Shown here one piece after another: positions 4,066 to 60,543 of a stretch of 64,000 nt of DNA. Where the stretch lies: the NCBI GenBank assembly GCA_023266575.1, contig JAHFPV010000005.1, forward strand, positions 124,001 through 188,000, in the 5' to 3' direction. The position numbers and the translations under genes are program-made. The notes below the pieces were generated by a model. That model saw only the letters and a list, made by a program, of their open reading frames with translations. It was not told where the DNA came from and ran no database searches. The first letter of the stretch is position 1. Every line of letters starts with the position of its first letter. Origin of the DNA: Sphingobium sp. Its GTDB lineage: Bacteria; Pseudomonadota; Alphaproteobacteria; Sphingomonadales; Sphingomonadaceae.

Positions 4066-4098
4066 CTTCTATCCTTGCCCCAGTCCTATATCCAATTC

Positions 4099-4280
4099 GT
4101 CACCCCGGACTTGATCCGGGGTCCAGGGTGGCAGGCGTTGTGCTTGCCGCTCTGGATGCCGGATCAAGTCCGGCTTGACGGTCATTTCCTCTCACCCCGT
4201 TCGGGCTGAGCAAACAAATCAATCAGCGTGGTTTACGACGCCAGAAGAACAACTGGACCTCGGATCAAGTCCGGGGTGAC
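4099..4280. repeat. Palindromic repeat cluster between bioB and pccA (CCCCGGA/TCCGGGG family)
   Basis: Three related 28-bp arms: 4099-4126, 4154-4181 (inverted, diverged) and 4253-4280 (inverted). Each contains a small palindrome such as CCCCGGA-CTTGA-TCCGGGG at 4103-4121. A fragment of another repeat family (CCGTTCGGGCTGAGC) lies near 4198. Nothing here looks coding. The arms would fold into hairpins in the operon mRNA. Confidence 0.8.
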
Positions 4281-5314: not shown

Positions 5315-5415
5315 CCGTTCGGGCTGAGCGAAGTCGAAGCCGTCTGCTGAGCGAAGCGAAGCGCAAAGCCTTCGACAGGCTCAGGCCGGCCCTTCGACAG
5401 GCTCAGGGCGAACGG
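5315..5415. repeat. Palindromic repeats between the mutase gene and bioB
   Basis: At least three units: 5315-5341 (CCGTTCGGGCTGAGCGAAG...), 5369-5388 (partial) and 5390-5415. The last is the same 26-bp sequence that borders the GIY-YIG element at 17117-17482. They fill almost the whole 124-bp gap inside the operon. Confidence 0.85.
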
Positions 5416-10000: not shown

Positions 10001-10067
10001 CCGTTCGTTTCGAGCGAAGTCGAGAAACGTCGCGCACCGGTTTCTCGACTTCGCTCGAAACGAACGG
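10001..10067. repeat. Perfect 28-bp inverted repeat (palindromic element)
   Basis: The arms at 10001-10028 and 10040-10067 are exact reverse complements around an 11-base loop. The arm begins CCGTTCGTTTCGAGCGAAG. It lies in the 5' region of the ScfR regulator gene, between the operator cluster and the start codon, so a transcript starting at the operators would carry a very strong hairpin. A diverged relative is at 13822-13894. Confidence 0.9.
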
Positions 10068-16425: not shown

Positions 16426-17105
16426 ATCATAAGGCACCCCGGCCCGACACCGATGGCTGGCTGGCGGCGCTGATCGGGCGTCCGCCGCGTGACCCTGCGC
16501 CGTTCAACCAGGCACTCACCCATGGCAGCGCCAATCCGGTCAATTATGAGCGGCTGGAATTTCTGGGCGACCGGGTGCTGGGGCTGCTGGTATCCGAATG
16601 GGTGTTCGAACGCTTTTCTGGCGAACCCGAAGGCAAATTGTCGCGCCGTTTCAATGCGCTGGTATCAGGCGAAACCTGCGCAGAGGTAGCGCGCGCAGCG
16701 GGCGTACCCACCCATCTGGTGCTGGGCAAGCAGGCGCGCGACGATGGCGCGGCCAATAGCGACAATGTGCTGGGCGACGTCATGGAAGCGCTGATCGGTG
16801 CGCTCTATCTGGAGGCGGGGCTGGAGGAAGCGCGCACGCTCGTCCGCCGCCTCTGGGCCGACCGGGTCGATACCCAGACCGCCGCCCCCCGCCATCCCAA
16901 ATCCGCGCTCCAGGAATGGGCTGCCGCCAACAAGCGCAAGCCCCCCGAATATGAAGTCAAGGACCGCTCCGGCCCCCACCATGCGCTGCGTTTCGTCGTA
17001 TCAGTGACGATCAAGGGCGCGGGCGAGGCGAGCGCGACCGGCGGATCGAAACAGGAAGCGGAGACAGCGGCAGCGGCGGCGTTGCTGGAGAAGCTGACGG
17101 GGTGA
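16422..17105 (+). CDS. rnc: Ribonuclease III
   Basis: A double-strand-specific endoribonuclease for rRNA and mRNA processing. It is 227 residues long. The RNase III signature ERLEFLGDRVLGLL contains catalytic E46 and D50, and a second acidic set is in DVMEALIGALYLEAG. A dsRNA-binding domain follows from about residue 155 (PKSALQEWAAANKRKPPEYEV, ATGGSKQEAETAAAAALLEKL). The start is TTG at 16422 and overlaps the lepB stop as TTGA, with GGGGAAGG just upstream, so translation is probably coupled. In most relatives era follows directly; here a 366-bp repeat-bounded element separates them. Confidence 0.95.
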   Translation: MNHKAPRPDTDGWLAALIGRPPRDPAPFNQALTHGSANPVNYERLEFLGDRVLGLLVSEWVFERFSGEPEGKLSRRFNALVSGETCAEVARAAGVPTHLVLGKQARDDGAANSDNVLGDVMEALIGALYLEAGLEEARTLVRRLWADRVDTQTAAPRHPKSALQEWAAANKRKPPEYEVKDRSGPHHALRFVVSVTIKGAGEASATGGSKQEAETAAAAALLEKLTG

Positions 17106-17116
17106 TCATCACAACC

Positions 17117-17482
17117 CCGTTCGCCCTGAGCTTGTCGAAGGGTCTTACTTCTTCTTAAATCCGACGATGCCCTTCTGGACCTACCTTCTCCATTGCGCAG
17201 ACCGCAGTTTCTATGTCGGCCATACCGACGATCTGGAAAGCCGTATCGGTCAGCATGAAGCGGGCAGCATCGCTGGCTACACGCAATCGCGCCTGCCTGT
17301 GAAACTGGTCTGGTCGCAATCGTTCGGCACACGTATAGAGGCGCTCGAAGCCGAGAGACAGACTAAGGGTTAGGGCCGGGCGAAGAAGCTGGCGCTGATC
17401 CGTGAGGATTGGACGTTGATCTCGACATTGGCGCGATCAAAGACAGAAAAGTAAAGCCCTTCGACAGGCTCAGGGCGAACGG
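17117..17482. mobile_element. GIY-YIG palindromic element A, inserted between rnc and era
   Basis: A 366-bp unit bounded by inverted 26-bp repeats at 17117-17142 and 17457-17482, which match at 25 of 26 positions. Nearly everything between them is a GIY-YIG nuclease reading frame ending two bases before the right repeat. The border repeat also occurs alone or in partial form at 5390-5415, 29094-29190 and 60445-60543. No target duplication could be made out. It has separated the normally adjacent rnc and era genes. The mobile status is inferred from structure. Confidence 0.65.
17167..17454 (+). pseudogene. GIY-YIG nuclease, interrupted by an in-frame amber codon
   Basis: A COG2827-type single-domain GIY-YIG endonuclease reading frame. 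MPFWTYLLHCADRSFYVGHT carries the family's two tyrosine-containing strands, followed by R27-type arginine (DLESRIGQH) and the glutamate helix EALEAERQTKG. At 17371-17373 the frame meets TAG. The same frame then continues GRAKKLALIREDWTLISTLA to TAA at 17452-17454. Relatives have a tryptophan at the stop position, so one TGG-to-TAG change explains the break. The 68-residue product would lack the last helices. Readthrough cannot be excluded. It lies inside inverted repeats at 17117-17142 and 17457-17482. Confidence 0.75.
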
Positions 17483-17490
17483 AGTATAAT

Positions 17491-18399
17491 TTGGAAGTTT
17501 CAGAAACCAATCAGCGCTGCGGCGTCATTGCCGTTGTCGGCGCGCCCAATGCGGGCAAGTCCACGCTGGTCAACGCGCTGGTGGGGCAGAAGGTGGCGAT
17601 CACCAGTGCCAAGGCGCAGACCACGCGCACCCGCGTGATGGGCGTCGCGATAGAGGGCGACGCGCAACTGGTGCTGGTCGATACGCCCGGCATTTTCGCG
17701 CCCAAGCGGCGGCTGGACCGCGCCATGGTGCAGGCGGCCTGGGGCGGCGCGCAGGGCGCGGACCTGATCGCGATGGTGGTGGATGGCAAGGCGGGCCGTG
17801 GCCCAAAGCTGGAACCCATCATCGAAGCGCTCAAGCATCGCACCGAACGCAAATGGCTGATCCTCAACAAGGTGGATATCGCCATCAAGGAAAAGCTGCT
17901 GACCCATACCCAGGTGCTGAACGACACGCTGGGCTTTGACGAAATCTTCTTCGTGTCCGCCGCGACCGGCGATGGCCTGCCTGAACTGAAAGCCGCCTTC
18001 GCCGCCGCGATGCCGCAGGGACCATGGCATTTCCCCGAAGATCAGGTGTCGGACGCGACCGACCGAATGCTGGCGGCGGAAATCACCCGCGAGCAGCTTT
18101 ATCATCAACTCCATGCCGAGCTACCCTACGCGGCTGCCGTCGATACCGAACAATATAAGGAGCGGCAGGACGGATCGGTCGAAATCCACCAGCAAATCCT
18201 GGTCGGCCGCTCGACCCAGCGCGCCATCGTGCTGGGCAAGGGGGGGCAGCGCCTCAAGGAAATCGGCTCAAAAGCGCGCGAGGAACTGGCGAACCTGCTG
18301 GGGGTGAAGGTCCACCTCTACCTGCACGTCAAGGTCAAGGAAGATTGGGAAAATGATCGCGGCATCTACCGCGACATCGGGCTGGACTGGGTCGAGTAA
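17491..18399 (+). CDS. era: GTPase Era, 16S rRNA/30S assembly factor
   Basis: A GTPase that binds 16S rRNA during small-subunit assembly. It is 302 residues long. G1 is GAPNAGKST, G3 is DTPGIF, and G4 is NKVD; a C-terminal KH domain follows (HQQILVGRSTQRAIVLGKGGQRLKEIG split over residues 232-260). The start is TTG at 17491, chosen because GGAG at 17481-17484 sits six bases upstream and the next in-frame starts would cut into the G domain. The first two bases of that ribosome binding site belong to the right border of element A, so the insertion has built part of the initiation region. Confidence 0.94.
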   Translation: MEVSETNQRCGVIAVVGAPNAGKSTLVNALVGQKVAITSAKAQTTRTRVMGVAIEGDAQLVLVDTPGIFAPKRRLDRAMVQAAWGGAQGADLIAMVVDGKAGRGPKLEPIIEALKHRTERKWLILNKVDIAIKEKLLTHTQVLNDTLGFDEIFFVSAATGDGLPELKAAFAAAMPQGPWHFPEDQVSDATDRMLAAEITREQLYHQLHAELPYAAAVDTEQYKERQDGSVEIHQQILVGRSTQRAIVLGKGGQRLKEIGSKAREELANLLGVKVHLYLHVKVKEDWENDRGIYRDIGLDWVE

Positions 18400-18412
18400 G
18401 AGTTCCCCACCA

Positions 18413-18509
18413 CCGTCATCCTGACGAAAGTCAGGATCCATTCGACGCTACGCTGCTTACTCTCACAGCGCTGCGCCGAATGGATCCCGCATCAAGTGCG
18501 GGATGACGG
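18413..18509. repeat. Inverted palindromic repeats between convergent era and topA
   Basis: The left unit 18413-18444 contains TCCTGAC-GAAA-GTCAGGA. The right unit 18477-18509 contains ATCCCGCA-TCAAG-TGCGGGAT. Both share outer parts CCGTCATCC and GGATCCATTCG in inverted orientation. It fills the gap between the two stop codons and could terminate both transcripts. Confidence 0.85.
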
Positions 18510-18527
18510 AGTGAATGGGCGCGACGC

Positions 18528-21113
18528 TTACTCCGCCGCCGCCTTCTTCTTGGTCGGTGCCTTCTTCGCCGCCGGCTTTTTCGCCGCGCCGTCCGTCTTG
18601 GAGCTGGCCTTCTTCGCCGGCGCCTTCTTGGGCGCGGCTTTCTTCTTCGCGCCCTTCTTGGCCGGTGCCGCCGCTGCCCGCGCGTCGATCAGTTGCGCGG
18701 CTTCTTCCAGCGTCAGCTGGTCCTTGTCCACCGTCTTGGGCAGGGTCGCATTGGTCGTGCCGTCGGTGACGTAAGCGCCATAGCGCCCTTCCATCAGCTT
18801 GATCTCAGCTTCCGTGCGCGGATGCGCGCCCAGCACCTTGAGCGGCTCCCGTCCGGCACTGCGTGGCCCACGGTTGGCGGCCTCGGCGAGCTTCACCACC
18901 GCGCTGTTCATCCCGACCTCGAAAATCTCCGACGTCGATGACAGTCGCCCATATTTGCCGTCATGCAGCAGATAGGGGCCAAAGCGCCCGATATTCGCCA
19001 CGATCGGCTTGCCCGTTTCGGGGTGCAGGCCAATTTCGCGCGGCAGGCTCAGCAATTTGACGCCCCAGTCGAGCGTCAGTTCGCCGTCGGGCAAATCCTT
19101 GGGGATCGACCCGCGCTTGGCCTCCTTGCCCTCACCCATTTCGATATAGGGACCAAAACGGCCGGATTTCTTGACGATATCCTGCCCGGTTTCTGGGTGT
19201 TTCCCCAACACTTCCGGTCCCGTATCCTCGCCATCCTTGCCACCCGGCTGGCCGAATTTGCGGGTATATTTGCATTCGGGGTAATTGGAGCAGGCGATGA
19301 ACGCCCCGAACCGCCCGCCACGCAGCGACAATTGCCCCTCCGCGCACAACGGACAGGCGCGCGGATTGCTGCCGTCGGCCTTGGGCGGGAACAGCATCGG
19401 CTCCAGAAACTTGTCCAGCGCCGCGGTAATGTCGCTCGGCTTCTGCTCCATGACCTCAGCGGTCTTGGGCTTAAAATCCTTCCAAAAGGCTTCCAGCACC
19501 GCCTGCCACTGGGCACGGCCACCGGAAATATCGTCCAGTTCGTCCTCAAGCCCCGCCGTGAAGTCATAGGAGACATAGCGCTCGAAAAAGCGCTCCAGGA
19601 AAGCCGTCACCAGCCGCCCGCTCTCCTCGGCGAAAAAGCGGTTCTTCTCGATCCGCACATAGTCGCGGTCTTTCAGCACCTGCAACGTCGAGGCATAGGT
19701 GGACGGACGCCCGATCCCCAATTCCTCCAGCCGCTTGACGAGGCTGGCTTCGGAATAGCGCGGCGGCGGCTGGGTGAAATGCTGCTCGGCGCTCACCTTC
19801 TTCTTGGCGGGCGCATCGCCCTCGCTCATGCGCGGCAGCAGCTTGCCGTCCTCGTCATCGCTATCGTCGCGACCTTCCTCATACAGCGCCAGGAAGCCGG
19901 GGAAGATCACCACCTGCCCCGTCGCGCGCAGCGTATGCGTGCCGGTGGCGTCGTTCATGTCGATGGTGGTGCGTTCCAGCCGCGCCGACGCCATCTGGCT
20001 GGCCAGCGCCCGCTTGAACACCAGGTCATAGAGCCGGGCATGATCGCCGCTGCCCACCTTGTCGCGTGAAAAGTCGGTCGGGCGAATGGCTTCATGCGCT
20101 TCCTGCGCATTCTTCGCCTTGGTCTGGTAGATGCGCGGCTTGTCCGGCACATAGCCGCCATCATAGCGCTGCGCGATCGCGGCGCGTGCGGCGGAAATGG
20201 CGCTGCTGTCCATCTGCACGCCGTCGGTCCGCATATAGGTGATCGCGCCATCCTCATACAGCTGCTGCGCGATCCGCATCGTGTGACTGGCGGAAAAGCC
20301 AAGCTTGCGCGCGGCTTCCTGCTGGATGGTCGATGTGGTGAAGGGCGGCGGCGGGTTGCGGGTGAGCGGCTTGGTCTCGACCTTCTCGACAGTGAAGCGA
20401 CCGGCCTCGACATCGGCCTTGGCCGCCATCGCGTCGCCCTCGCGACCGATCGTCAGCCGCTCGATCTTCTCGCCCTTCCAGCGGACCAGCCGCGCGGTAA
20501 AGGCAGTGCCGTCCTGCTCCATCTCCGCCGCGACCGACCAATATTCCTGGGGCGTGAAGCTCTCAATCTCCCGCTCCCGCTCCACCACAAGCCGCAACGC
20601 GACCGACTGCACCCGGCCTGCCGACTTGGCACCGGGCAGCTTGCGCCACAGCACCGGCGACAGGGTAAAGCCCACCAGATAGTCGAGCGCCCGGCGCGCG
20701 CGGTAGGCGTCGATCAGATCCTCGTCCAATGCGCGCGGCTTGGCCATCGCGTCCAGCACGGCGGCCTTGGTGATCGCGTTGAACGTCACCCGGTCAACCA
20801 CCGCAGGCAGCGCCTTCTTGGCGCGCAAAACCTCCTGCACATGCCAGCTGATCGCTTCCCCTTCGCGATCAGGGTCAGTCGCCAGGATCAATCGTGACGC
20901 GCCCTTGGCCGCGTCGCTGATGGCCTTGAGCTGCTTGCCCTTGTCGCCATAATTTTCCCACTGCATAGCAAAGCCGTCATCGGGGTCCACCGACCCGTCC
21001 TTGGCCGGCAGGTCGCGGATATGGCCGTAGCTGGCCAGAACATGGAAATCCCCGCCCAGATATTTCTCGATGGTCTTGGCCTTGGCAGGCGATTCGACGA
21101 TGACAAGCTGCAT
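18528..21113 (-). CDS. topA: DNA topoisomerase I
   Basis: A type IA topoisomerase that relaxes negative supercoils. It is 861 residues long. The Toprim domain (VIVESPAKAKTIEKYLG, TDPDREGEA) opens it, and the catalytic tyrosine is about Y293 in AITYMRTDG. One four-cysteine zinc ribbon is seen (CPLC, then CSNYPEC), followed by several repeated RFGPYI-type C-terminal modules (GRFGPYIEMGEG, GRFGPYLLHDGK, GRYGAYVTDGT). The last 45 residues are a lysine- and alanine-rich tail (KKAPAKKA-like repeats), common in alphaproteobacterial TopA and probably a DNA-binding extension. It is convergent with era. dprA lies upstream in the same orientation, as in many genomes, but separated by element B. Confidence 0.95.
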   Translation of the reverse strand: MQLVIVESPAKAKTIEKYLGGDFHVLASYGHIRDLPAKDGSVDPDDGFAMQWENYGDKGKQLKAISDAAKGASRLILATDPDREGEAISWHVQEVLRAKKALPAVVDRVTFNAITKAAVLDAMAKPRALDEDLIDAYRARRALDYLVGFTLSPVLWRKLPGAKSAGRVQSVALRLVVEREREIESFTPQEYWSVAAEMEQDGTAFTARLVRWKGEKIERLTIGREGDAMAAKADVEAGRFTVEKVETKPLTRNPPPPFTTSTIQQEAARKLGFSASHTMRIAQQLYEDGAITYMRTDGVQMDSSAISAARAAIAQRYDGGYVPDKPRIYQTKAKNAQEAHEAIRPTDFSRDKVGSGDHARLYDLVFKRALASQMASARLERTTIDMNDATGTHTLRATGQVVIFPGFLALYEEGRDDSDDEDGKLLPRMSEGDAPAKKKVSAEQHFTQPPPRYSEASLVKRLEELGIGRPSTYASTLQVLKDRDYVRIEKNRFFAEESGRLVTAFLERFFERYVSYDFTAGLEDELDDISGGRAQWQAVLEAFWKDFKPKTAEVMEQKPSDITAALDKFLEPMLFPPKADGSNPRACPLCAEGQLSLRGGRFGAFIACSNYPECKYTRKFGQPGGKDGEDTGPEVLGKHPETGQDIVKKSGRFGPYIEMGEGKEAKRGSIPKDLPDGELTLDWGVKLLSLPREIGLHPETGKPIVANIGRFGPYLLHDGKYGRLSSTSEIFEVGMNSAVVKLAEAANRGPRSAGREPLKVLGAHPRTEAEIKLMEGRYGAYVTDGTTNATLPKTVDKDQLTLEEAAQLIDARAAAAPAKKGAKKKAAPKKAPAKKASSKTDGAAKKPAAKKAPTKKKAAAE

Positions 21114-21232
21114 TTACGGCCCCGGAATTTGATGCCTCACACGTACGCGCGAGTCTGGAAGGCGATGACGGCGGGCGTCAAGCGGTGCGTGTGATTAGGG
21201 GAGATGCGGGGGGAGCGCCAGCCCCCTGGCGC

Positions 21233-21612
21233 TGCCGTCATGCCAGCGAAGGCTGGCATCTCAGGCGACTACACGATGAAGTCGAACAGTTCGCGCCATT
21301 CCGGGTTCATTTCCTCAATCAACCGGATTTTCCATTCGCGCTTCCAGGCCTTGATCGCTTTCTCCCGCGCTATGGCCTCCGCGATATGATCATGGCGTTC
21401 CGCCAGAACGAGACGATGCAGATTATACTGACGACAGAAATCCGATCCAACGCCGCGCCGATGCTGGTCCACGCGCACATGGAGTGAATTGGTCACGCCA
21501 ACATACAGCACGCCACGCGGCTTGTTGGTCATGATGTAGGTCCAGCCGCCGCGTATGGGGCAAATGTTACGCGCGGCCGCCTGAGATGCCAGCCTTCGCT
21601 GGCATGACGGCA
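21233..21612. mobile_element. GIY-YIG palindromic element B, between topA and dprA
   Basis: A 380-bp unit bounded by perfect 35-bp inverted repeats at 21233-21267 and 21578-21612. Each arm contains the hairpin ATGCCAGC-GAAG-GCTGGCAT. The enclosed GIY-YIG gene ends one base inside the left arm and its first possible ATG lies at the outer edge of the right arm, so the arms and the gene form one compact unit. Another hairpin, GCGCCAG-CCCC-CTGGCGC, abuts the left arm at 21215-21232. No target duplication was found. The mobile nature is inferred from this layout. Confidence 0.7.
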
Positions 21613-21613
21613 T
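21269..21613 (-). CDS. GIY-YIG family nuclease (COG2827/UPF0213-like)
   Basis: A small single-domain GIY-YIG nuclease of about 95 recognisable residues. GGWTYIM and GVLYVGVT give the two tyrosine strands, LHVRVDQHR the catalytic arginine, and AIAREKAIKAWKREWK the metal-binding glutamate; NPEWRELFD is the usual C-terminus. The start is unclear. The homologous start (before RGGW) is ATA at 21556, the ATG at 21532 would remove the first strand, and the only ATG keeping the domain whole is 21613, at the edge of the right inverted repeat. The gene lies between 35-bp inverted repeats. Possible roles are repeat mobilisation or DNA repair; neither is shown. Confidence 0.7.
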   Translation of the reverse strand: MPSCQRRLASQAAARNICPIRGGWTYIMTNKPRGVLYVGVTNSLHVRVDQHRRGVGSDFCRQYNLHRLVLAERHDHIAEAIAREKAIKAWKREWKIRLIEEMNPEWRELFDFIV

Positions 21614-21619
21614 TGATAA

Positions 21620-22702
21620 TCACCGCAAACTCACCCGTCCCCCCGCCAGCCGGTCCAGCCGCTCGGCCAGTTCCAGTTCCAGCAGCACTGTCTGCACCAC
21701 CGCCGGACTAAACCCGCTCAGTCGGATCAGTTCATCCACCGGCACCGGCGCATGGCCCAGCAGCGCAATCACGGCGCTTCGTTCGCCCGCCGCGACGTCG
21801 CTCGACACCGGTTCGCCTGCGAAATCGAAACTACCCTGCCGCACCATGCGGATGTCGATGCTGCCCACCGCCTCCAGCACATCGTCGGCATTCTGGATCA
21901 GCGTCGCGCCTTCGCGGATCAACTGGTTGCAGCCCTGCGCGCGCGGATCGAGTGGCGATCCCGGCACGGCCATCACCTCGCGCCCCGCCTCGCCCGCCAG
22001 CCGCGCAGTGATAAGCGATCCCGATTTGGGCGCCGCCTCCACCACGACCGTGCCTTCCGCCAGTCCGGCGATGATCCGGTTGCGCGCCGGGAAATGCCGC
22101 GCCAGCGGCTGCACGCCGGGCGGATGCTCCGTCACCAACAACCCCACCTCGGCAATCTGCGCCTGCAAATCGCGATTTTCCGGCGGAAACACCACGTCCA
22201 GCCCGCAGGCGATGACGCCGATCGTCCCGCTGCCCACCGATCCCTGATGCGCCGCCGTGTCGATACCCCGCGCCAGTCCCGATACGACCACCGCCCCGCG
22301 CTGCCCCAGATCCTGCGCCAGCGTCCGCGCAAAGCGCACCGCCGCCGCCGACGCATTGCGCGCACCGACCATGGCGATGCATTTGCCAGCGGCCAGCGCA
22401 GCGTCGCCCCGCACGATCAGCGCAGGCGGCGCGCCTTCAAACTGATCAAGCAGAGCGGGATAGTCCGCATCCCCCATCAACAAATAGCGCGCGCCCAATG
22501 CCCGCGACGCCGCAATCTCCCGCTCAACCGCGCCCGCATCGGCAACGCTGGCCTTGCCCCCGCCGCGCGCCGCCAGATCGGGAATGGCGCGCAACGCCGC
22601 CCCCGCCGTGCCAAAGCGCGCCAGCAATTGCCGATAGCTGACCGGGCCGATCCGGGGCGATCGGATGAGCCGCAGCCGGTCGAACCGCTCCTGCTCGCTC
22701 AC
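21620..22702 (-). CDS. dprA: DNA-processing protein DprA
   Basis: A recombination mediator that loads RecA on incoming single-stranded DNA during transformation. It is about 360 residues long. An N-terminal SAM-like region (RFDRLRLIRSPRIGPVSYRQ) is followed by the Rossmann-type DprA domain (GMVGARNAS-like IAMVGARNAS, SGLARGIDTAAHQGS, GVIACGLDVVFPPENR, FPARNRIIAGLAEGTVVVEA, SGSLITA) and a C-terminal winged helix (VPVDELIRLSGFSPAVVQTVLLELEL). The GTG start at 22702 overlaps the plsY stop (GTGA), which fixes it; the longer open frame upstream runs through plsY and was rejected. Its order plsY-dprA-topA is common in alphaproteobacteria. Confidence 0.93.
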   Translation of the reverse strand: MSEQERFDRLRLIRSPRIGPVSYRQLLARFGTAGAALRAIPDLAARGGGKASVADAGAVEREIAASRALGARYLLMGDADYPALLDQFEGAPPALIVRGDAALAAGKCIAMVGARNASAAAVRFARTLAQDLGQRGAVVVSGLARGIDTAAHQGSVGSGTIGVIACGLDVVFPPENRDLQAQIAEVGLLVTEHPPGVQPLARHFPARNRIIAGLAEGTVVVEAAPKSGSLITARLAGEAGREVMAVPGSPLDPRAQGCNQLIREGATLIQNADDVLEAVGSIDIRMVRQGSFDFAGEPVSSDVAAGERSAVIALLGHAPVPVDELIRLSGFSPAVVQTVLLELELAERLDRLAGGRVSLR

Positions 22703-33220: not shown

Positions 33221-33301
33221 CCGTCATCCCCGCGAACGCTGGGATCGCCCTTTTCTGTTGCGCCACAAAGAAGTGAGACCCCAGCTTTCGCTGGGGTGAC
33301 G
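33221..33301. repeat. Palindromic repeat pair between the dehydrogenase and nspC
   Basis: The left unit begins CCGTCATCCCCGCGAACGC at 33221. The right unit, near 33278-33301, contains ACCCCAGC-TTTC-GCTGGGGT. It is related in its outer parts to the repeats at 18413-18509. It sits inside a likely operon. Confidence 0.75.
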
Positions 33302-60444: not shown

Positions 60445-60543
60445 TCCGTTCGGGCTGAGCGAAGTCGAAGCCTTACACTGAGCGTAGCGAAGTGACCTCC
60501 CTGCGGTCGGTCGAACCCTTCGACTTCGCTCAGGGCGAACGGA
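60445..60543. repeat. Palindromic repeats between ccmE and ccmF
   Basis: The left unit begins CCGTTCGGGCTGAGCGAAG at 60445; the right unit ends CTCAGGGCGAACGG at 60543 and begins CCCTTCGACTTCGC near 60517. They are inverted relatives of the element A border repeat. They lie inside the ccm operon. Confidence 0.85.

Follow-up and report, generated by a model that had tools for sequence, protein, structure and literature searches.

GIY-YIG nuclease genes between outward-tagged CGTC REPs: a candidate REP element in Sphingobium sp. and its relatives

Described repeat systems and the unit at 21233-21612

The REP/RAYT systems (GTAG REPs, REPINs) have short palindromes that bear a 4-nt tag and sit in inverse orientation on either side of an enzyme gene; gene-less doublets occur as well, and the repeats are many where the gene copies are few. 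The unit reported here is from Sphingobium sp. and lies in a stretch of 64,000 nt, referred to as the window. It shares these properties with REP/RAYT, but its enzyme is a GIY-YIG nuclease (PF01541) and not an HUH Y1 transposase (PF01797), and its tag is CGTC and not GTAG. It behaves like REP/RAYT yet lacks the enzyme and the tag that define that family.

A second class, the CGTC REPs, is defined by a CGTC or TGTC tag, an 8-9 bp stem starting with AT and a loop of 4-5 nt (PMC3733652). The class includes neisserial dRS3 (PMC3733652; Di Nocera 2013), the repeats are listed in Neisseriae, Sinorhizobium meliloti, Azospirillum lipoferum and Novosphingobium aromaticivorans, and a CCA-like tail is part of the published description. 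In the main text of the 2013 survey these REPs are said to 'apparently lack a dedicated transposase', and a tyrosine transposase gene flanked by CGTC repeats was not found; the same main text contains no word beginning with GIY (PMC3733652). The REPs of the present unit and its relatives are alike in tag, 8-bp stem starting with AT, 4-nt loop, head-to-head doublets and a CCA-like tail in the family consensus. They are unlike the described class in that a dedicated enzyme, absent from that main text, is proposed here.

Free-standing and intron GIY-YIG homing endonucleases offer an analogy, as selfish units whose mobility depends on a GIY-YIG nuclease. The window nuclease differs in having about 100 aa and, in a domain search, PF01541 with no further domain found. 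Its predicted target is also different, being the palindrome at the element's own ends, whereas the homing model, in the main text of PMC1564403, has the empty allele as target. The UPF0213 and prokaryotic Slx1-like GIY-YIG proteins are similar in sequence (1zg2, 1ywl) and fold (1zg2, Slx1), but a tie of these to palindromic repeats was not seen, and the string 'palindrom' is absent from the main text of PMC1564403. In the part of the open-access literature that was listed, preprints aside, no paper tying GIY-YIG nucleases to REPs was found.

The unit consists of the following features.

21233-21612, no strand: whole REP-gene-REP unit, tag to tag 21236-21609, 374 nt
21236-21259, + strand: left REP, CGTC tag and ATGCCAGC-GAAG-GCTGGCAT, tag outward, inside arm 21233-21267
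21269-21613, - strand: GIY-YIG nuclease ORF, 114 aa as read, conserved domain 21272-21550
21554-21556, - strand: ATA in the window, ATG (likely start codon) in the orthologues L139, L141 and L142
21586-21609, - strand: right REP, the left-REP sequence in inverse orientation, tag outward, inside arm 21578-21612

The initial annotation had reported exact 35-bp inverted repeats, each holding a hairpin with a GAAG loop, around a GIY-YIG nuclease gene, and all three observations hold. An inverted-repeat comparison shows arms of 35 nt (21233-21267 and 21578-21612) that are 100% complementary with 310 nt spacing, the hairpin ATGCCAGC-NNNN-GCTGGCAT is exact at 21240-21259 and 21586-21605, and the enclosed ORF matches PF01541 with an E-value of 5.9e-12. 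The segment of the arm common to relatives is the 24-nt REP (CGTC, stem, loop, stem) and a short inner tail, and the outermost TGC/GCA of the arms falls outside the REP tag. As single-stranded DNA the left arm folds with -11.3 kcal/mol, and none of 200 shuffles is equally stable. The tight fit of gene to repeats proposed earlier stands on one side only: the ORF ends one base (21268) from the left arm, but as read it begins at 21613, spans the right arm and does not fit between the arms. The likely start ATG of the orthologues is lost in the window copy. Two-REP copies in five other genomes (G111, G139, G149, G169, G180) have tag-to-tag lengths of 370-376 nt.

Both window REPs carry an unpaired CGTC and the stem and loop ATGCCAGC-GAAG, and the window genome has 5 exact stem-loops and 15 of the wider CCAGC type. 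Tags of 254 REPs around relatives are CGTC in 208, TGTC in 39 and GGTC in 7, in a scan that admitted only C, T or G before GTC. The tail consensus around the relatives' genes is C 0.94, C 0.70, A 0.63, and the window copy reads CTC. The unit, first regarded as a lone nuclease case, is instead one member of a large family, and its palindrome belongs to a known class.

The tyrosine, arginine and glutamate residues of the GIY-YIG motif have a catalytic role. The two motif tyrosines, the arginine and the glutamate that mark the nuclease superfamily are all present in the window protein, and Y9, Y20, R30 and E67 (first-row numbers) are invariant across 13 sequences. An AF2 model from 32 sequences gives a pLDDT of 90.7. 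A Foldseek search of the PDB with this model gave no match at E 0.001; the best match is UPF0213 1zg2 (E 0.0096, probability 1.00), followed by Slx1-Slx4, At-HIGLE and UvrC. The modelled fold is UPF0213/Slx1-like.

REPs and palindrome types at GIY-YIG genes

Relatives were collected with 13 query sequences, mostly from loci already known to bear REPs, and the collection may favour such lineages. Of the named loci, which are the best 80 of 549 confirmed GIY-YIG loci, 32 display outward tagged REPs on both sides. The same is seen at 3 of 6679 control placements and at 0 of 478 other ORFs; these ORFs are at least 100 aa long, and none beside a unit or near a contig end was taken. One-sided counts are 45/80 upstream and 43/80 downstream, vs 11/478 and 12/478 for the control ORFs. 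In the remaining 48 of these best 80 of 549 loci a recognised outward REP is missing on at least one side; some REPs are missed because the scan used a fixed stem of 8 with one mismatch permitted. An exact inverted repeat of at least 14 nt joins the flanks in 43 of the best 80 of 549, and one of at least 20 nt in 18, vs 13 and 1 of 4476 control placements of the same geometry on the contigs of the 80 relatives. Chance and ordinary intergenic hairpins are ruled out by the placement and gene-matched controls.

A pool of 189 distinct domains, with identical copies dropped and enriched for chosen multi-copy sphingomonad genomes, shows outward REPs on two sides in 104, on one side in 46 and on neither in 39. 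The pool contains a few domains of a second kind, type B (e.g. L001, L003; see below), and two of the 39 are type B with another palindrome. Outward REPs are found upstream in 130/189 and downstream in 124/189, and inward ones in 31 and 41. By this pooled scan, with domain ends set slightly differently, 34 of the named loci (best 80 of 549) are two-sided.

By record labels the two-sided named loci include alpha-, beta- and gammaproteobacteria. They are also present in metagenome-assembled genomes labelled Leptolyngbya, Kapaibacterium, Bacteroidetes and Desulfosarcina, with further two-sided loci in those labelled Sulfurovum, Sedimentisphaerales and Chloroflexi (binning as deposited). On the N. 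aromaticivorans plasmid pNL2 a GIY-YIG gene sits in an exact outward GCCCCGTG-cttga pair, and CGTC REPs are found on both sides of GIY-YIG genes in S. meliloti Ak57 and, between sufB and sufC, in A. lipoferum 4B. In N. gonorrhoeae (L259) the ATTCCCGC (dRS3-class) REPs nearest the GIY-YIG gene face inward, and outward ones are further away. A close REP pair was not found at the Rhizobium tumorigenes gene (L260) in the stretch inspected. On a Planktothrix agardhii plasmid (L261), GTCATTCTGAG-type repeats surround a GIY-YIG gene whose neighbours are drmA and a type IIL restriction gene. A GIY-YIG subgroup with a GVLYIGVT..EQHRSGAV-like sequence (L175, L188, L201, L204, L220) has a REP on neither side and is possibly a domesticated lineage.

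The two palindromes of a locus match each other. In 61 of the 104 two-sided domains the left stem is the same as the right, where 2000 shuffles give a mean of 6.8 and a maximum of 15. Left-right similarity just inside the REP is 0.97, 0.91 and 0.93, dropping over about 9 nt; outside the tag it is near background (0.51, 0.36, 0.37 vs 0.36, 0.28, 0.28), with the first base standing out and the next two slightly in excess. This drop at the tags makes them the leading candidates for the element's ends.

By sequence comparison, palindrome type goes with the lineage of the nuclease and not with the genome. From 150 REP-bearing domains there are 75 cases with a same-genome paralogue of <85% identity and, in some other genome, a nearer homologue; the palindrome of that foreign homologue is the closer one in 64, with 9 ties and 2 losses. 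Within genomes, stem and loop are shared in 0/65 pairs below 60% identity, 1/11 at 60-80% and 32/32 at 80% or more. The within-genome correlation of protein identity with palindrome distance is -0.71 (0/2000 permutations as extreme); without pairs of 85% identity or more it is rho -0.25 and not significant (501/2000 permutations as extreme). The window-type lineage has the stem AT[GC]CCAGC and a 4-nt loop, the WVYIMADRYRGT-type lineage pairs with ACCCCGGG-cttga, the YILAS-type with ATGCTGAA-cttgt and the LASRRNGTLYIGVTSNL-like with ATTCCCGC, the last with exceptions.

The window contains a second GIY-YIG system, 4 kb from the first unit, in the rnc-era spacer, a site that is variable in the genus.

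17117-17142, + strand: left palindrome of the second unit, CCGTTCGCCCTGAGCTTGTCGAAGGG
17167-17373, + strand: second GIY-YIG gene (type B), PF01541 E 1.9e-15, TAG at 17371
17457-17482, - strand: right palindrome of the second unit, inverse orientation, exact over the outer 15 nt

Homology of the second gene continues past the TAG to about 17430. Inverted CCGTTCG-type palindromes enclose each of the three type B genes of the window genome (L001, L002 and L003, the last being window 17167). At 19/25 type B loci (20/26 with L001 = L256 double-counted) the gene is flanked by an exact inverted repeat of at least 14 nt, vs 1/418 control placements. The type B gene is found in 10 of the 30 rnc-era loci read (of 40 genus loci that matched), and 4 of these 10 are broken: the window copy and L272 by TAG and TAA, L267 by a frame change and L275 by frame changes and a TAG. 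The palindromes of broken copies persist on at least one side. Three type B arms fold not clearly better than shuffles (z 0.17, -1.32, -1.00), so that recognition of type B may be different. Cores of the CCGTTCG-type palindrome also occur in close groups at window 5315-5406, 10011-10057 and 60446-60542.

Other classes of element were considered for this region. Three proteins gave no PHROGs match at E 0.001, which rejects a phage origin. A defence system is rejected as well: PADLOC gave no match for the window nuclease, and for the second GIY-YIG protein its single hit was weak (E 0.022). No known RNA family reaches the gathering score in 16800-22000.

Occupied sites, multi-copy units and gene-less REPs

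A partnership like that of REP and RAYT with an unrelated enzyme, the reading of the initial annotation, is backed by the controlled association, by the co-variation of palindrome and protein, by multi-copy units and by co-occurrence. That nuclease and REP are partners is very likely. The unit is probably an autonomous REP element, its nuclease a dedicated partner acting on its own REP, and active transposition by the nuclease is likely.

At topA-dprA, where 30 of the 41 genus loci that matched were read, the gene is present in 4 and a solo REP in 1 (L140, genome G184), and neither was found in the other 25, in a REP scan with one mismatch allowed; L155 had dprA out of reach. Three of the four carriers have both REPs and L141 has a left REP and a broken right REP. 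Thus the gene is not conserved at this site without repeats, all four carriers having at least one. The dN/dS ratio is 0.05-0.22 over 6 pairs of the four topA-dprA orthologues, indicating purifying selection on their sequences; among same-genome copies, with few changes, it is 0.06-0.96. At rnc-era some near relatives have, on visual inspection, gene-less CGTC doublets (among them L265, L266, L271 and L273), and others have a short spacer. In G184 the Era segment is 100% identical to that of the window, with the solo REP at topA-dprA and a doublet at rnc-era. Comparison of occupied with empty sites at topA-dprA and rnc-era did not yield a clean insertion junction.

Purifying selection at topA-dprA, retention of the gene there in four genomes and a fold near that of Slx1, a branched-DNA nuclease, would all agree with a domesticated host nuclease. 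Such an enzyme would serve the cell, e.g. by trimming hairpins or branched DNA, with the REPs as its substrates or genomic address and with little or no present transposition. This is unlikely, since the distribution is patchy (4 of the 30 loci read at this site), copies with stop codons are found in several genomes and multi-copy units exist.

The multi-copy units favour an element that moves. G139 has 5 copies, with units 0.93-0.98 identical and REPs identical in all five, and the three copies inspected have different neighbouring ORFs. Other genomes have 5 copies of one type (G071), 4 (G111), 4 (G149), 3 (G169) and 6 (G180, two of them within one shared 1.8-kb segment). Four G183 copies at contig ends were excluded from the count of dispersed copies. 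G229 (L341) has three REP-giy-REP units in tandem, 467 nt apart. Units are 0.85-0.99 identical within genomes, and genome means outside the tags are 0.55-0.93 over the first 20 nt and 0.35-0.70 at 61-80 nt, highest in the tandem G229, with a baseline of 0.37-0.40.

A weakly conserved outer flank of ~60 nt beyond the tags is found in G180, G149, G169, G139, G071 and G111, so that a larger unit may have moved. The alignments of four G139 pairs extend over 549-605 nt, and 1.8 kb is common to two G180 copies. The REP-gene-REP unit could then be cargo, carried by an outer element and not self-moving. This is improbable, because identity falls most steeply at the tag, and in 33 named loci of other species a common outer flank was not found (baseline 0.37-0.40). 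A gene-less outer shell was sought by one pattern search, a weak test, and its 16 matches in 7 genomes are chance-like. Some sphingomonad units (L038-L042, L168-L172, L328-L337, L360) show a weaker common outer flank with GCGGAC / GTCCGC-like motifs, which are seen at the Novosphingobium plasmid copy too.

The REPs far outnumber the genes. The CCAGC-type pattern has 1797 matches in 94 genus genomes, and a reversed-pattern control counts 0. It is found in 41/41 genomes with a close nuclease (at least 60% identity, our own choice, which separates the window lineage from the ACCCCGGG lineage) and in 36/53 without, with medians of 25 and 6. The repeats thus co-vary with the gene in that every carrier has them, but many genomes without the gene have them as well. 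The 41/41 is partly expected because gene-flanking REPs are counted too; the difference in medians exceeds that. Of 149 family genomes, 25 have the exact ATGCCAGC REP pattern, and each of the 25 belongs to the 104 that gave a nuclease match (Fisher p 6.5e-5); such co-occurrence p-values are too small because the genomes are related. The exact REP is present in 13/20 of the closest family genomes vs 12/129 of the rest, a cut-off set after seeing the table and not relied on.

Gene-less REP doublets are common. Among the places listed, in the first genomes only, 36 head-out REP pairs were matched by hand, of which 29 are 50-61 nt apart, 4 are at 340-350 nt, the gene-carrying length, and 3 lie between. 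The window has one such doublet near the CCAGC type.

33222-33301, no strand: gene-less head-out REP doublet, start-to-start 56 nt (50-61 nt class), members 33222-33245 (one stem mismatch) and 33278-33301 (ACCCCAGC)

Gene-less head-out CGTC pairs of other stem types are seen at window 4098-4180 and 18414-18508; one stem has a mismatch, and the two REPs of a pair differ.

The stable hairpin, with one REP over the start region of the gene and the other adjoining its stop, would also suit a purely regulatory role, in which the REPs would serve the nuclease gene as operators, terminators or mRNA hairpins. This is very improbable with 1797 CCAGC-type matches in the 94 genus genomes, far above the gene number, and the same double flank at 0/478 other ORFs. 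Movement of the REPs by a RAYT or other IS200-type Y1 transposase, with the GIY-YIG gene as passenger, is scarcely credible: Y1 matches are found in 23/94 genus genomes, but a search gave none in 71/94, none (PF01797) in the window genome (G000) and none in 56 of the 77 genus genomes with these REPs, and the 2013 survey cited above points the same way.

Proposed mechanism and significance

In the proposed mechanism two outward-tagged CGTC REPs and one small GIY-YIG gene would form a 374-nt autonomous element. The nuclease would bind the REP hairpin as single-stranded DNA or as a cruciform and, as a guess, nick at or near the CGTC tag. RAYT rejoins DNA by way of a covalent link and a hydrolytic GIY-YIG enzyme forms none, so that host repair or replication would have to complete the copying. 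Gene-less doublets 50-61 nt apart may be non-autonomous derivatives moved in trans, and solo REPs may be remnants of doublets.

More broadly, and with somewhat less assurance, we favour small GIY-YIG nucleases as the missing mobilising enzymes of the CGTC REPs, matched to them lineage by lineage, with a second lineage that independently took CCGTTCG-type palindromes. CGTC REPs, including dRS3 of Neisseria, are found in several phyla, and the main text of the survey that defined them reports no enzyme (PMC3733652). A nuclease matched to each palindrome type makes their origin directly testable, and the test system is small: one protein of ~100 aa, a single hairpin of 24 nt, and cognate and non-cognate pairs that nature already supplies. 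Should this be true, REP replicators would have had at least two origins, with unrelated enzymes, and nuclease-palindrome replicators would make up a general class alongside RAYT/REP, present in Proteobacteria and other phyla.
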